Below, piece by piece: positions 11,336-30,386 of a stretch of DNA of 64,000 nucleotides. A program made the translations under genes and the position numbers. This DNA is from Erythrobacteraceae bacterium. GTDB taxonomy: Bacteria > Pseudomonadota > Alphaproteobacteria > Sphingomonadales > Sphingomonadaceae. The stretch is taken from the NCBI GenBank assembly GCA_027489065.1, contig JAIYAM010000060.1, positions 21,498 through 85,497 on the forward strand. The letters are read 5' to 3'. The stretch's first letter is position 1. Every line of letters starts with the position of its first letter. Below the pieces are notes generated by a model, which worked only from the letters and a program-made list of their open reading frames with translations, was not told the origin of the DNA and did no database searches.

Positions 11336-11523
11336 TGAATTGACTCCGCATGGTTTAACAATTGATTGTTCCCCTGCGCTTCCCAAGACTGTGTGAACAT
11401 CGTCGGATACCCCATAACATGGGTTCCAAACTTGTCGGGTTTGCCGGAAAATCGGCGGGATTCACCTATGTGAGACTGCAGTTGAACCAATCGCGCTAGG
11501 CTGAGCTATCGCCCTCGTGCGAT

Positions 11524-11577: not shown

Positions 11578-13920
11578 ATGCATCGCCCCACTGAGAATCG
11601 CCCTTCGGCCAACCCCGTGCGGCGTCCGGTGATCGTCTGCTTCTCGCATTTGCGCTGGAACCTCGTGTTCCAAAGGCCGCAGCACATCCTCACCCGGCTG
11701 CTCGGCCAATTCGACGTCATCTATTGGGAGGAACCGCGCGACGAGGCGGATTGCGACACGGCGTGGGTGGATTGGACCCTGCTCGACGACGGGTTGGTGC
11801 GCGCCGAGCCGGTGCTGCCGACCGGCCTCAGCCCTGCCTCCTCCGAAGCGGCGCTGCGGGAGCTGCTCGCGGAGATGCTCGAAGGCGAAACCCGCCCGCT
11901 GGTGTTCTGGTATTACACCCCGATGATGCTTGGCTTCAGCTCCGGCATCCGCCCCGATCTGGTCGTCTATGACAACATGGACGAGCTCGCCAATTTTGCC
12001 TTCGCGCCCGGGGGCATCGCCCAGCGCGAGGCGACGCTGATGGCGCAGGCCGACATCGTGCTGTGCGGCGGCAAGAGCCTCTACGATGCGCGCCGGACCC
12101 GGCACCACAATATCCACTGCGTTCCCTCCGGCGTTGACGTGGCGCACTTCGCGCGCGGTGCCGACGGGCATCCCGATCCTGCCGACCAGGCCGCGATCCC
12201 CCGCCCCCGCCTCGGATTCTATGGCGTCATCGACGAGCGCATGGACCTCGCGCTGCTGGGCCGGATGGCGCAGCTGCGCCCCGACTGGTCGTTCGTGATG
12301 GTCGGCCCGGTGGTGAAGATCGCGCAAGGCGATCTGCCGCAGGCGAGCAACATCCACTGGCTGGGCGGCAAGAGCTACGCCGAGCTTCCGGCCTATGCCG
12401 CCGGCTGGGACGTCGCGCTGATGCCCTTCGCGATCAATGCCGCCACCGAGTTCATCAGCCCCACCAAGACGCCCGAATACATGGCCAGCGGTCTCCCGGT
12501 GGTTTCGACCCCGATCCGTGACGTGGTCTCGGGGTACGGCGAGTTCGAAAGCGTGGCTATCGCCGCAGACGCCGACAGCTTTGTTGCCGCTTGCGAGGCC
12601 TTCCTTGCAGCGCCTGCCGCAGCCCGCGCGCACTGGCGCAGCGAGGCTCGCGACTGTCTAGCCAGCCAGAGCTGGGACGGGATCGCCGCGCGGATCGAGC
12701 GGGAAATCGAGAACGGCTTTGCCGCACGCCGGCGTGCATCCGCAACGCCAAAGACCGTCAAGGGCCGCTCAAAGCGCCACTACGATGTGTTGGTGGTCGG
12801 CGCAGGGTTCGCCGGATCGGTCATGGCCGAACGGCTTGCAGCAGGCTCGGGCCGCTCGGTGCTGGTCATCGACAAGCGCGATCACATCGCCGGCAATGCC
12901 TTCGACCACAAGGACGAGGGCGGGATACTGGTCCACAAGTACGGGCCGCACATCTTCCACACCAACAGTCGCGACATCCTCGACTATCTGTCGCGCTTCA
13001 CGAGCTGGCGCCAATACGAGCACCGCGTGCTCGCCGAGGTCGAGGACCAGCTCGTGCCGATGCCGATCAACCGGACGACGCTCAATGCGCTCTATGGGCT
13101 TGATTTGAAGGACGAGGCCGAGGCCGAAGCCTACCTCAAGTCGGTCGCGGTCGACATCCCCGAGATCAAGAGCTCGCGCGACACGGTCGTCGCGCAGGTC
13201 GGGGTCGATCTCTACGAGAAGTTCTTCGAAGGCTATACCCGCAAGCAGTGGGGCATCGACCCGAGCGAACTCGACAAGTCGGTCGCCGCGCGTGTCCCGG
13301 CCCGCACCAACACCGACGACCGCTACTTCACGGACACCTATCAGTGCATGCCCGCGAACGGCTACACGGCGATGTTCGCGGCCATGCTGGACGAGCCGCG
13401 GATCACGGTCATGACCGGAATCTCCTATGACGAGCTGCCCGACGACATCACCTGGGATCACCTGGTGTGGAGTGGGCCGATCGACGAATATTTCGGGCAT
13501 CGGCTGGGCAAGCTGCCCTACCGCTCGCTGCGCTTCGAACACGAGAACCTGAACGTGGAACAGGCGCAACCGGTCGCTGTGGTGAACTATCCCGACTATG
13601 ACGTGCCCTACACTCGCATAACCGAGTACAAGCACCTCACCGGGCAGGTCGCGCCCAACACCAGCATCACCCGCGAATATCCGGCCGACGAGGGGGACCC
13701 CTACTATCCGATCCCCAATGACGAGGCACAGGCAATGTACAAGCGCTACGACGCGCTGGCGCGGGCGCAGCGGGACGTGACCTTCGTGGGGCGGCTCGCG
13801 ACCTATCGCTACTACAACATGGACCAGATCGTCGGTCAGGCGCTCGCCACATGGCGACGGCTTGATGAGCGCTGGCGGACGGAGGCCCTCGCCGGGTCCG
13901 GGGCGGTGGCGGCCGAATGA
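11578..13920 (+). CDS. Fusion protein: N-terminal GT4-like glycosyltransferase plus C-terminal UDP-galactopyranose mutase
   Basis: N-term CFSHLRWNLVFQRPQHIL...SPTKTPEYMASGLPVVSTP; C-term VVGAGFAGSVMAERLA, KRDHIAGNAFDHKDEGGILVHKYGPHIFHTN, EGYTRKQWG, YRSLRFE, NYPDYDVPYTRITEYKHLTGQ, FVGRLATYRYYNMDQ. Confidence 0.92.
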   Translation: MHRPTENRPSANPVRRPVIVCFSHLRWNLVFQRPQHILTRLLGQFDVIYWEEPRDEADCDTAWVDWTLLDDGLVRAEPVLPTGLSPASSEAALRELLAEMLEGETRPLVFWYYTPMMLGFSSGIRPDLVVYDNMDELANFAFAPGGIAQREATLMAQADIVLCGGKSLYDARRTRHHNIHCVPSGVDVAHFARGADGHPDPADQAAIPRPRLGFYGVIDERMDLALLGRMAQLRPDWSFVMVGPVVKIAQGDLPQASNIHWLGGKSYAELPAYAAGWDVALMPFAINAATEFISPTKTPEYMASGLPVVSTPIRDVVSGYGEFESVAIAADADSFVAACEAFLAAPAAARAHWRSEARDCLASQSWDGIAARIEREIENGFAARRRASATPKTVKGRSKRHYDVLVVGAGFAGSVMAERLAAGSGRSVLVIDKRDHIAGNAFDHKDEGGILVHKYGPHIFHTNSRDILDYLSRFTSWRQYEHRVLAEVEDQLVPMPINRTTLNALYGLDLKDEAEAEAYLKSVAVDIPEIKSSRDTVVAQVGVDLYEKFFEGYTRKQWGIDPSELDKSVAARVPARTNTDDRYFTDTYQCMPANGYTAMFAAMLDEPRITVMTGISYDELPDDITWDHLVWSGPIDEYFGHRLGKLPYRSLRFEHENLNVEQAQPVAVVNYPDYDVPYTRITEYKHLTGQVAPNTSITREYPADEGDPYYPIPNDEAQAMYKRYDALARAQRDVTFVGRLATYRYYNMDQIVGQALATWRRLDERWRTEALAGSGAVAAE

Positions 13921-15353
13921 AGGCCGCCGACGAGCTGACGCAGAACGCCATGGACCGCGTCGCGCCGCCGGCTGACGGCGCGGCGTGGATTCGCTGCGCC
14001 CCGGGCTCGCCCTACTTCGAGACCGGGGCGGGCGAGGCGTGGCTGCCGGTGGGGCACAATGAGGCGGTCGCCTGGCCGCGCCTCGCCGGTCTTTACCGTC
14101 GCCGCGACGTAGCCCCGGTCGAAGAACACTTCGCCGAACTCGCAAGCTGCGGCGTCAATTGCCTCAGGCTGATGCTCGACTACAGCCAGGTGAGGCATCG
14201 CCATCTCGAACATCGCGTCGGCGAGTTCAGCCCGGCGATGGTGCAGATGTGGGACGATCTGATCGCGCTGGGCGAGAAGCACCAGATCCGCTTCCTGCTG
14301 ACCCCTTTCGACACCTTCTTCATGGTGAAGCGGTGGAAAAGCCACCCCTATTCGCGCCACCGCGGCGGGCCTGCCCGATCGCTCGAGACGATGCTCACCT
14401 GCGCGGACACTCGCGCGGCGGTCATCAACCGGATGCTGTTCGCGACCCGGCGCTGGGGGCATAGCCCGGCGGTATTCGCCTGGGACCTGTGGAACGAGAT
14501 CGACCCCTTCTACGCAGGCGGCGACCTTCAGGCCACGCACGACTTCGTCACCGAACTCTCGGCCGCCTTGCGTGCGGAGGAACTGCGCCTCTACGGACGT
14601 GCGCACCTCCAGACAGTCTCGGTGTTTCACCCCAATTTCGTCGCCGCGCCGGCGCTCGGGGAGACAATCTTCCGCCACCCCTCGCTCGATTTCGCGAGCG
14701 TGCATCTCTACGAACGCGGCACGCTCGATGCGCCGCGCTCATCGCTCGCCCCTGCGCAGGCGACAGTGCGGCTGATGACCGAGGCGCTGGCCGAATGCCC
14801 GCCTGGCCGTCCGGTGCTCGATACAGAACATGGCCCGGTGCACGCCTTCAAGGACCGCCGCCTGACACTGCCCGACAGCTTCGATACCGCCTGCTTCCGC
14901 CGCACCCAGTGGGCGCACATTGCCAGCGGCGGCGCGGGTGGCGGAATGCGCTGGCCCTATCGCCATCCGCACATCCTGCTTCCGGAAATGCACGCCGCGC
15001 AGCGCATCTTCGCCGATTTCCTGCCACTGATCGACTGGCAGCGGTTCGACCGCCAGCCGCTCGGCGAGCGCCTGACGGTTCACGACTTCGCCGGACTGGC
15101 TTGCGGCTGCGGCGACGCAAACCAGGCAGTGATCGCGCTGATGGCAAGCGAGAGCGACGGCGGCACTGCTCGCCACCTCGAGATTACCGGCCTAGCGCCG
15201 GGGTGCTACGACGTTCGCCAGGTCAACACCGTCACGGGCGCACGCGAAGATTGTCAGGTAAACACCCGGCAGGACGGCTCGTTGGTGGTGCTGACGATGG
15301 GCGGCGTGCAGGATATCGCCTTGGCTATCACGCCCGCACCGGACGGGTGCTGA
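13917..15353 (+). CDS. Putative clan-A (GH5-like, TIM-barrel) glycoside hydrolase
   Basis: GHNEAVAWPR, NCLRLMLDYSQ, VFAWDLWNEIDPF (candidate acid/base Glu), RPVLDTEHGPV (candidate nucleophile Glu); ATGA overlap with upstream CDS. Confidence 0.75.
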   Translation: MKAADELTQNAMDRVAPPADGAAWIRCAPGSPYFETGAGEAWLPVGHNEAVAWPRLAGLYRRRDVAPVEEHFAELASCGVNCLRLMLDYSQVRHRHLEHRVGEFSPAMVQMWDDLIALGEKHQIRFLLTPFDTFFMVKRWKSHPYSRHRGGPARSLETMLTCADTRAAVINRMLFATRRWGHSPAVFAWDLWNEIDPFYAGGDLQATHDFVTELSAALRAEELRLYGRAHLQTVSVFHPNFVAAPALGETIFRHPSLDFASVHLYERGTLDAPRSSLAPAQATVRLMTEALAECPPGRPVLDTEHGPVHAFKDRRLTLPDSFDTACFRRTQWAHIASGGAGGGMRWPYRHPHILLPEMHAAQRIFADFLPLIDWQRFDRQPLGERLTVHDFAGLACGCGDANQAVIALMASESDGGTARHLEITGLAPGCYDVRQVNTVTGAREDCQVNTRQDGSLVVLTMGGVQDIALAITPAPDGC

Positions 15354-26838: not shown

Positions 26839-28092
26839 ATGATCTATCACGAATTCCTGCTGTTTGCGGGTCTTGCGATTGTTTGCGCATTCTGGCTGCC
26901 CCGCTTCCTGTCGGGGCGCGAACCCGCGTCTTCGTCGCTTCTCATCCTTGCCGGGGCCGCCGGCGGGTTCCTGATCGCCGAGCCCCCGCCCCTGTTCGAT
27001 CCGATGTCCGATCCGGAATGGTGGGAGATTCTGAGCGAGATGGCGGTGATCGTCGCCCTGTTCGCCACAGGCATGCGGCTCGACGTGGTGCGCCCGTTCT
27101 CGCGCTGGCAAGCGACCGGCCGCCTGCTGGCGGTGGCGATGCCGCTGACCATCGGTGCGATGGTCCTCGTCGGCCTTGCGGCCGGCTGGCCACTGGCGAG
27201 CGCGCTGCTGCTCGGCGCAGTGCTCGCCCCGACCGATCCGGTGCTTGCGGGAGACGTGCAGGTCGGCCCGCCCACCGAAGGCGGCGAGCACCCGGTGCGC
27301 TTCGCTCTGACTGCCGAGGCAGGGCTCAACGACGGCCTTGCATTCCCCTTCGTCTACCTCGCCATCGCCGCGATTGCCGGGCTGTCCGCGACCGAAGCGG
27401 CGGAGTGGGCCGCCTATGACCTCGTTTACCGCATCGTTGCCGGGGTGCTGGTCGGTGGAGCTGCCGGCTGGCTTCTGGGCCAGATCGTGTTCCGCTGGCC
27501 TGCTCAGAACGTGCTTGCGGAGACCGGCTCGGGCGTGCTTGCGCTGGCCGGTGTGCTGGTGTGCTACGGCGCGGCCGAGATGATCCACGGCTACGGCTTC
27601 ATCGCCTGTTTCGTTGGTGGCCTGGTCTTCCGCCGGATCGAGGTTGGGCATGAGTTCCACAGCGACCTCCACCTCTTCAACCTCGCCATCGAACATGCGC
27701 TGACCGCGGTGCTCCTGTTGATGACCGGAGCGGCGCTCGGCACCTATGCGGGTCTGGTGCGCTGGGATCACATTGCGATCGCGGCGAGCCTTGTCTTCGT
27801 CGTGCGCCCCCTGATCGGCTGGGTCGCTCTCGCCGGCACTGACCTCACTGCGCGCGAGCGGATGGTGGCGGCGGCCTTCGGCGTGCGCGGAATCGGCAGC
27901 ATCTATTATCTGGCCTTTGCCGCAGGAAGCGTCGCCGCCATGCCCTTTGTCGGCGAGCTGTGGCTGGTGGTGCTGGTGACGATCGCGATGTCGGCAGCCG
28001 TCCATGGCCTGACCGCAGGCGCGGCGCTGTCCGGCATAAGGGCTGACGCTCAGGACGACGAGACAGAGGCCGAGCCCGAGGCTGCCGGATGA
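26839..28092 (+). CDS. CPA-type cation:proton antiporter
   Basis: About 12 TM segments; LLLGAVLAPTDPVLAGDVQVG, LTAEAGLNDGLAFPFVYLA; upstream start at 26713 possible but less likely. Confidence 0.88.
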   Translation: MIYHEFLLFAGLAIVCAFWLPRFLSGREPASSSLLILAGAAGGFLIAEPPPLFDPMSDPEWWEILSEMAVIVALFATGMRLDVVRPFSRWQATGRLLAVAMPLTIGAMVLVGLAAGWPLASALLLGAVLAPTDPVLAGDVQVGPPTEGGEHPVRFALTAEAGLNDGLAFPFVYLAIAAIAGLSATEAAEWAAYDLVYRIVAGVLVGGAAGWLLGQIVFRWPAQNVLAETGSGVLALAGVLVCYGAAEMIHGYGFIACFVGGLVFRRIEVGHEFHSDLHLFNLAIEHALTAVLLLMTGAALGTYAGLVRWDHIAIAASLVFVVRPLIGWVALAGTDLTARERMVAAAFGVRGIGSIYYLAFAAGSVAAMPFVGELWLVVLVTIAMSAAVHGLTAGAALSGIRADAQDDETEAEPEAAG

Positions 28093-28829
28093 CGCCCGCA
28101 CCCCCGCCTCTCGCGCTTCTGCTCGATTTTGACGGCACGCTCGCCCCGATCGGCCCGACGCCCGACGACATTGCGGTCACCGACGACCTGCGCGAACTGA
28201 TCGCCGAGGCGGCGGAGCGGTTGGACGGCCGTGTCGCGCTGGTCAGCGGTCGCTCTCTCGACCAGCTCGACGCGCTGTGGGGTCGCAGCCTGTGGCCTGT
28301 GACGGTCGCAGCGAGCCACGGACAGGAGCTTCGCCACGATGGCATCCGCCGCGCGCCTCCCCTCGCCGACATCTTCCCGCGCCTGATCCGCGAGGTCCAG
28401 GCGCGCTTCCCTTCTTCGGACGGCGTGGTGGTCGAGCTCAAGAGCTTCGGCCTCGGGCTCCATTACCGGCTCGCGCCCGGAAGACGCGATGCAGTGCGTG
28501 CGTGGACGGAGGAGCGCGCGGCGGAACACGGCCTCGTCGTCCAGCCGGGCGACATGGTATTCGAGTTGCGCCTGCCGGGCGCGGACAAGGGCGATGCGGT
28601 TCGCACGATCATGCGGCTCGCCCCATTCTCCGGGAGCCGGCCCCTGTATATCGGAGACGATCTCACCGACATCCCGGCCATCGAGGCGGCGCGGGCTTTG
28701 GGCGGTAGCGGGATCGCGGTGGGCGGGCGGATCGCCGGGCATGCCGATGCGGTGCTCGCCTCCCCTGAAGCGGTGCTCGAGCATGTCAGGACCGTGCTGC
28801 AAGGTAGCCGGCGCGCTTTCATCACTTAG
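28089..28829 (+). CDS. otsB: Trehalose-6-phosphate phosphatase
   Basis: LLLDFDGTLAPIGPTPDDI, ALVSGRSLDQLD, YIGDDLTDIPAIEAA. Confidence 0.93.
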   Translation: MTPAPPPLALLLDFDGTLAPIGPTPDDIAVTDDLRELIAEAAERLDGRVALVSGRSLDQLDALWGRSLWPVTVAASHGQELRHDGIRRAPPLADIFPRLIREVQARFPSSDGVVVELKSFGLGLHYRLAPGRRDAVRAWTEERAAEHGLVVQPGDMVFELRLPGADKGDAVRTIMRLAPFSGSRPLYIGDDLTDIPAIEAARALGGSGIAVGGRIAGHADAVLASPEAVLEHVRTVLQGSRRAFIT

Positions 28830-28964
28830 GCGTTTTTTTGTCCGGCCGCCCTCGCGCAAAGGCGGCGCAACCATTCGACGCGGCGGGGATCGCCCGGCCC
28901 GCCACGGCACCCATATTGCTCGGCCGCGCCCTCGGGCCGCCCTGCGACAGCCTGAAAGGCCATC

Positions 28965-30386
28965 ATGGCCCGCCTGATTTGCGTATCGAACCGCGTGAAG
29001 GTCGAAACCGATGACGACCATGCCAGCCGAGGCGGCCTCGTTGTCGCGCTGGCCGCTGCCTTACGCGAAAACGACGGCCTGTGGTTCGGCTGGTCGGGCG
29101 GCGAGACGGAAGCCTTCTCCGGCCAGATCACTTTCCGACGTGACGACGGGGTGGCGCTTGCGACCATCGATCTGGAACCGCAGGACATAGAGGAATACCA
29201 CAGGGGCTTCGCCAACCGCACCTTGTGGCCGCTGCTCCACTCCAGGCCCGCTTTGACCGACATGGAAGGCGGCTTCGGCGACGGCTATGCGCGGGTCAGC
29301 TGGCGTTTCGCCGCGGCGCTCGCGCCGCTGATCGAAGCCGACGACCTGATCTGGGTGCACGACTATCACCTCATCCCGCTTGGGAGACACCTGCGCGAGC
29401 ACGGCTTCGGCAATCGCATCGGGTTCTTCCTTCACACGCCCTGGCCGCCCGCCGGCGTGTTGATGTCTCTGCCCCACCACCGCGAACTGGCCCTCTCGAT
29501 GCTCGCCTACGATGTGATCGGTTTTCAGTCGGAGGAGTGGCTTTACGCTTTCTGCGACTACGCGACCGGCCATCTCGGCGCGCGCGTGGAGGGCGAGTGC
29601 GTGATGCTGGGCGAGCGCAGCACGCGGCTGCTGATCTGCCCGATGGGGCTGGACGCTGCGGATTTCGCCGGCGCGGTGCACAGTCTCGCGGCGCGGCAGA
29701 CCGAAACGCGGCTCGCGGTCAGCGCGGTCGGATACGACCTCATCGTCGGGGTCGACCGGCTCGACCACTCCAAGGGCCTTGCAGAACGTTTCGCAGCCTA
29801 TGAACTGCTGCTCGCCAGCCGTCCCGAACTGCGCGAGAAGGTGGTGATGCTCCAGATCACCCCGCCGCCGCGCGGCGACGTGCCGAGCTGCGCGCAGATC
29901 CGCAGCGACCTGGAGATGCTTTCGGGCCGCATCAACGGCGCTTTTGCCGCGATCGACTGGATGCCGATCCGTTACGTCAATCACGGCTATTCGCGCGACG
30001 AACTGTTCGGCGTGTACCGTGCCGCCCAGGTCGGGCTCGTCACCCCCTTGCGTGACGGGATGAACATCGTCGCCAAGGAATATGTCGCAGCGCAGGACCC
30101 CGCCGATCCCGGCGTGCTGGTCCTGTCGTGCTTTGCGGGAGCCGCTGCGCAGCTGTCCGAGGCCGTCATCGTCGACCCGCATTCGGCCGAGGATATCGCC
30201 GACGGCATCGCCCGCGCGCTCGCCATGCCGCTCGCGGAGCGGCAGGAACGGCACAAGGCCCTGCTCGAGAACGTCACGCTTCATGACGTGCGTTGGTGGT
30301 CGCGCACCTTCATGGAGGCGCTCGATCAGGTGCCTGCGCGCAAACCCGGCCCGCCGCTCGTCGCCTCTTCAGTCGAAGGCGGATAA
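28965..30386 (+). CDS. otsA: Trehalose-6-phosphate synthase
   Basis: RLICVSNRVKVETD, WVHDYHLIPLGRHLRE, GVDRLDHSKGLAERF, LRDGMNIVAKEYVAAQ. Confidence 0.95.
   Translation: MARLICVSNRVKVETDDDHASRGGLVVALAAALRENDGLWFGWSGGETEAFSGQITFRRDDGVALATIDLEPQDIEEYHRGFANRTLWPLLHSRPALTDMEGGFGDGYARVSWRFAAALAPLIEADDLIWVHDYHLIPLGRHLREHGFGNRIGFFLHTPWPPAGVLMSLPHHRELALSMLAYDVIGFQSEEWLYAFCDYATGHLGARVEGECVMLGERSTRLLICPMGLDAADFAGAVHSLAARQTETRLAVSAVGYDLIVGVDRLDHSKGLAERFAAYELLLASRPELREKVVMLQITPPPRGDVPSCAQIRSDLEMLSGRINGAFAAIDWMPIRYVNHGYSRDELFGVYRAAQVGLVTPLRDGMNIVAKEYVAAQDPADPGVLVLSCFAGAAAQLSEAVIVDPHSAEDIADGIARALAMPLAERQERHKALLENVTLHDVRWWSRTFMEALDQVPARKPGPPLVASSVEGG

Follow-up and report, generated by a model that had tools for sequence, protein, structure and literature searches.

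The window analysed here, a stretch of 64,000 nucleotides from an Erythrobacteraceae bacterium, carries two overlapping genes on its plus strand. The fusion gene P0001 (11578-13920) begins with ATG and encodes 780 amino acid residues in one open reading frame (ORF). The gene of a clan-A-like glycoside hydrolase (GH), P0002 (13917-15353; ATG start, 478 residues), starts inside its stop codon, the two sharing an ATGA at 13917-13920. Coordinates, lengths and overlap were verified exactly as given in a first-pass annotation, which had also read P0001 as a GT4-like glycosyltransferase (GT) followed by a complete UDP-galactopyranose mutase (UGM; Glf). The domain searches bear this out.

The N-terminal half of the fusion (residues 18-389; 11629-12744, plus strand) is a GT4-type (GT-B) glycosyltransferase domain, which matches PF13692 (Glyco_trans_1_4) in a Pfam search with 38.7 bits against a cut-off of 27 and is modelled mostly with pLDDT above 90. 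It scores 77 bits for the TuaH equivalog NF047676 and does not reach the cut-off of 550; by score it appears to be a distant TuaH-like domain. In the E-x7-E motif the second glutamate (E300) is invariant, and the first position is Phe292 (PTKTPEY) in the window as well as in the consensus. Helix 366-389 is followed by a linker of low confidence in the AlphaFold2 model (residues 390-397; 12745-12768, plus strand), and this in turn by the UGM domain (residues 400-764; 12775-13869, plus strand).

The UGM half lies above the cut-offs of both PF03275 (GLF; 259.5 bits against 26.3) and TIGR00031, the NCBI UGM equivalog (about 370.2 bits against 303.75). It aligns over its whole length with the Deinococcus UGM 3hdq, 219 of 379 residues (58%) being identical, and matches that structure at a TM score of 0.97 by target in Foldseek. 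The DrUGM residues which we take to be catalytic, H88, W184, R198, Y209, N296, R305, Y335, Y370 and N372, have their equivalents in H461, W558, R572, Y583, N670, R680, Y710, Y745 and N747 of the fusion, R572 and R680 aligning with R198 and R305, and all nine are invariant in 60 fused proteins. The glycine motif of the FAD site (VGAGFAGS) is present, and the loss of FAD-site residues that the first-pass annotation had envisaged for this half is not the case. The window UGM resembles the bacterial enzyme (Glf, TIGR00031; 3hdq) in fold and in all tested catalytic residues, but the known enzyme is a separate protein, whereas here it is fused C-terminally to a GT4 domain. Judged by sequence, P0001 joins a GT4-type glycosyltransferase to a complete UGM whose tested catalytic residues are intact.

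The AlphaFold2 model of the fusion, built on 60 sequences (pLDDT 91.5), shows two cleanly defined domains connected by a short, loose linker; with a pTM of 0.55 it does not predict the mutual orientation of the domains, and hence not substrate channelling. The source genome has a single UGM and a strong galE. That the GT domain may take UDP-galactofuranose (UDP-Galf) as its donor is suggested solely by its fusion to UGM.

P0002 had been labelled GH5/clan-A-like; its glutamates fit clan A, where the acid/base Glu follows an Asn on strand 4 and the nucleophile Glu lies on strand 7, but the GH5 label is not supported. The predicted acid/base Glu194 (WDLWNE; codon 14496-14498, plus strand) and the predicted nucleophile Glu304 (DTEHGP; codon 14826-14828, plus strand) form a clan-A-like pair, on the pattern WNE and DxEHGP, that is invariant in an alignment of 23 relatives (23/23); a catalytic pair failing to fit clan A is thus not what was found. 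A Pfam search of P0002 matched no family, and PF00150 (GH5) was reached by one of the 23 relatives, at E 0.001. The AlphaFold2 model of P0002 was poor (pLDDT 57) and was set aside for fold searching, a profile search of the PDB being used instead. The profile of the 23 relatives matched best with 9gmj, a 'DUF5060 domain-containing protein' (E 2e-20), compared with E about 0.003 for GH5 mannanases. The DUF5060 proteins (9gmj and 9gpc), the closest solved relatives, share the WNE motif and a C-terminal stretch with P0002 but are longer, with about 127 extra N-terminal residues; the glutamate corresponding to E194 is Gln in the 9gpc sequence. P0002 appears to be a clan-A-like hydrolase with a DUF5060 protein as its nearest solved relative, for which the label GH5 is too specific. 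It is probably cytosolic, since no signal sequence was seen on reading its N-terminus.

Genome contigs were scanned for relatives of the fusion, and at least 581 loci encode one. The best 80 of these at least 581 loci belong to sphingomonads, Paracoccus, Devosia, rhizobia, Azospirillum, Caulobacteraceae, a few Betaproteobacteria and a Chromatiales metagenome-assembled genome, and in 79 of the 80 the fusion is a single ORF; it is widespread and not special to this locus. The exception is Microvirga (L104), where GT and UGM are separate genes side by side, with a TAA six bases ahead of the ATG of UGM. The Azospirillum and Sphingobium plasmid records label the fusion only 'glf'. The GT half has been overlooked in the annotations seen, and the fusion is real and common.

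Among 351 Sphingomonadaceae genomes, 67 have UGM or its GT; as read from the table, 45 carry the fusion, 14 adjacent separate pairs, seven UGM only and one GT only, so that in 59 of the 67 the two are either fused or neighbours. On the Deinococcus ficus plasmid pDFI2 (L169:7386-9666), separate GT and glf genes overlap by 8 bases. These separate pairs (D. ficus, the 14 Sphingomonadaceae and Microvirga) have the same order as the fusion and are adjacent or overlapping; however, they encode two proteins, and the D. ficus pair is without an annotated adjoining GH gene. In a UGM tree, a quick tree with many weak branches, the fused forms make up one main clade; next to it is a clade of separate genes, which takes in most of the adjacent pairs, and one later split and a few cases of UGM alone also appear. 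Since separate adjacent GT and UGM genes form the neighbouring clade, the fusion probably arose from neighbouring genes.

P0002-like hydrolases occur in 20 of the 351 Sphingomonadaceae genomes, all of them among the 67 with UGM or GT (hypergeometric P about 3e-16 by genome and 4e-7 by genus, values that are inflated by kinship since related genomes are not independent). The gene is adjacent in 13 of the 20 genomes and lies elsewhere in seven. Within the genus of the source genome, the hydrolase is found in six of seven genomes with the fusion and in none without it. In the class-wide sample the only other genome with this hydrolase, G478, also has GT and UGM. The gene-neighbourhood survey of fusion and hydrolase that had been proposed from the first reading thus finds this type of hydrolase only with the GT/UGM family (20/20 and, as counted in the class-wide sample, 2/2 genomes). 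The link is not due to chance and is statistical as well as positional. Nevertheless, the hydrolase is not strictly required for the fusion, because E. oryzae (L027) and genome G017 carry the fusion without it.

Other hydrolases show a comparable association. A GH1-RmlD protein, unrelated to P0002, occurs in 28 of the 351 genomes, all 28 among the same 67, and adjoins the fusion at many Sphingomonas loci. Like P0002, this Sphingomonas/Sphingobium protein is probably a cytosolic TIM-barrel GH that tracks UGM genomes, but it belongs to another GH family and has an RmlD reductase fused on. The source genome has its own copy (L138:8972-11185, minus strand, on contig C15; the fusion lies on another contig), 57%/48% identical to a Sphingobium protein that does adjoin the fusion. 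Overall, a TIM-barrel-type GH of any kind is found in the flanks of 67 of the best 80 fusion loci, a count that includes four P0002-type loci (L026, L028, L029 and L030) added from overlapping genes; several of the remaining 13 loci end at contig edges. The last gene of the Paracoccus and rhizobial operons encodes a GT4-GH protein, and in Azospirillum the fusion is followed by an annotated beta-galactosidase and then an ABC transporter. Functional coupling of GT, UGM and hydrolase is supported well beyond the source genome. The first-pass proposal of a self-contained galactofuranose (Galf) unit survives as far as this coupling is concerned, but 'self-contained' is doubtful because further GTs, oxidoreductases or, in Azospirillum, the ABC transporter accompany the fusion in relatives.

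In Paracoccus acridae (L097:6835-16703) the operon consists of a GT, the GT4-UGM fusion, a GT4-Gfo/Idh fusion, a Zn-alcohol dehydrogenase and a GT4-GH fusion. Similar operons occur at L070, L074, L096 and L099, with Ku and LigD coming after the operon in several cases. This conserved Paracoccus-type operon encodes several fused enzymes and is a biosynthetic cluster that is so far uncharacterised.

In the window, the immediate neighbours of the fusion encode PRC-barrel, SWEET-like, SDR, ZIP, Mn catalase, hemerythrin, Ku, LigD and HWE kinase proteins. No polysaccharide locus was found among these immediate neighbours, for which the first-pass annotation was right. With its Mn catalase and Ku/LigD, the locus is a stress island, and its setting is one of stress survival, not a polysaccharide locus. 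Further along the window, two adjacent genes (28089-30386) resemble by eye those of trehalose-6-phosphate phosphatase and synthase, which would fit a stress-survival region. The GT/glf pair of the D. ficus plasmid lies near genes for a ferritin-like protein and a universal stress protein, and therefore the stress setting may extend beyond Proteobacteria.

Of 79 relatives, 33 have a motif of the general-stress sigma factor EcfG (GGAAC-N17,18-GTT) 5' of the fusion or of the operon that contains it. Scrambled or wrongly spaced versions of the motif give 0-5, and 1.1% of random windows contain it; the published consensus is GGAAC-N17-20-GTT (PMC6599016). Upstream of the fusion in the source window, no EcfG motif (GGAAC-N16..18-GTT) was found. 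The EcfG-regulon genes 1750 and 1751 of S. melonis Fr1 are annotated 'Glycosyltransferase' and 'Glycosidases' (PMC6599016); a link between them and the fusion was considered but is not claimed, since their promoters match none of the loci compared, S. melonis AS2.3 included. Alignment of six upstream regions gave two conserved blocks, neither assigned to a strand: CCCCATAACATGGGTTC at 11410-11426, with the palindrome CCCAT-AAC-ATGGG, and ATTCACCTATGTGAGACTG at 11460-11478. Both are common to Erythrobacter-clade loci 5' of the fusion, and the block at 11410-11426 is a possible regulatory site.

Known loci for Galf polymers, Kingella pamABC and Klebsiella O2a, place UGM beside Galf transferases of families GT2 and GT111 (PMC12269835). 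The window likewise has UGM beside a transferase, here a candidate Galf transferase. In contrast to those loci, which have no fusion, the transferase is of GT4 type and fused, it has a hydrolase partner, and there is no O-antigen locus in the immediate neighbourhood.

In our view these genes rather probably encode a bifunctional cytosolic enzyme that makes and uses UDP-Galf, together with a coupled GH acting on the same glycoconjugate, and would form a module for a galactofuranose glycan linked to stress. Using reduced FAD, the C-terminal UGM domain would convert UDP-Galp supplied by the GalE of the genome to UDP-Galf, and the N-terminal GT4 domain would transfer Galf, on the cytosolic side, to an acceptor. 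The clan-A-type hydrolase, whose translation is coupled to that of the fusion, may work on this glycoconjugate in the cytosol, where it would trim or recycle wrongly built product or else act on the product as a transglycosylase. Non-orthologous TIM-barrel GHs would do the same job in relatives, and the module would probably be part of stress-survival physiology. More tentatively, and with clearly less confidence, one may envisage a pathway, not described before and regulated by stress, that leads to a galactofuranose glycoconjugate in Alphaproteobacteria and some Betaproteobacteria and in which the cytosolic TIM-barrel GH is a building step. The GH would then serve in transglycosylation or proof-reading, not in degradation, and unrelated GH families could take its place.

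GT4 and TuaH-like enzymes use various sugar donors, and the GT4 domain could transfer another sugar while UGM supplies UDP-Galf to some other Galf transferase, the fusion then tying two glycan steps together. This is somewhat unlikely in our estimation. It would agree with the absence of GT4 among the Galf transferases of PMC12269835, with the several other GTs adjoining the fusion in Paracoccus and rhizobial operons, and with the seven family genomes that have UGM without GT; however, many Sphingomonas loci have no such other GTs beside the fusion, and the adjacency or fusion of the two in 59 of 67 family genomes also speaks against it. The hydrolase, for its part, could be an ordinary catabolic glycosidase, a chance operon neighbour unrelated to Galf, as its distance from the fusion in seven of 20 genomes might suggest: in G145 it lies far away, and in G096 and G396 it adjoins an inositol-phosphate-synthase gene. 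Yet every genome with this GH has GT/UGM, the unlinked cases included, P0002 has no visible N-terminal signal sequence, and analogous GHs recur at fusion loci, which makes a catabolic role unlikely.

It is quite improbable that the UGM domain uses a different UDP-hexose, for instance UDP-GalNAc as the Campylobacter enzyme does. The Campylobacter UDP-GalNAc mutase 4mo2 is a homologue, but its arginine in HIFR, at a position that presumably sets GalNAc use, is His461 (HIFH) in the window, as in Deinococcus UGM. As to two proteins with a missed stop, a sequencing or gene-calling artefact foreseen at first reading, separate-gene forms do exist, and Microvirga has its TAA before the UGM gene; against this, relatives sequenced in independent assemblies have a single ORF in 79 of 80 cases and form one main clade, and an artefact, of negligible probability, is already refuted for the group.

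Galactofuranose has been described chiefly in mycobacteria, in fungi and in some O-antigens and is, to our knowledge, absent from mammals. In a literature search that covered few subscription journals, no paper was found that describes the GT-UGM or the GH1-RmlD fusion, links TuaH with galactofuranose or shows galactofuranose in these bacteria, and the sole paper found on DUF5060 was a Lactobacillus genome survey. The fusion, listed only as 'glf' in public records, is common in Alphaproteobacteria, a group for which that search returned no Galf paper, and it is accompanied by a hydrolase type without family assignment that occurs, in the sampled genomes, only where this GT/UGM family does. If the Galf product is real, the locus would give defined access to a glycan associated with stress, and also a natural enzyme in which donor synthesis combined with transfer can be studied.

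An inositol-phosphate-synthase cluster was considered as an obligate partner of the hydrolase and rejected: it is present in 14 of the 20 GH genomes, but it also occurs in UGM-negative genomes and is missing from genus g23. On contig C15 of the source genome (L139; C15:30000-49900), as at L145, a myo-inositol-1-phosphate synthase gene lies with genes for sugar epimerases and several glycosyltransferases.
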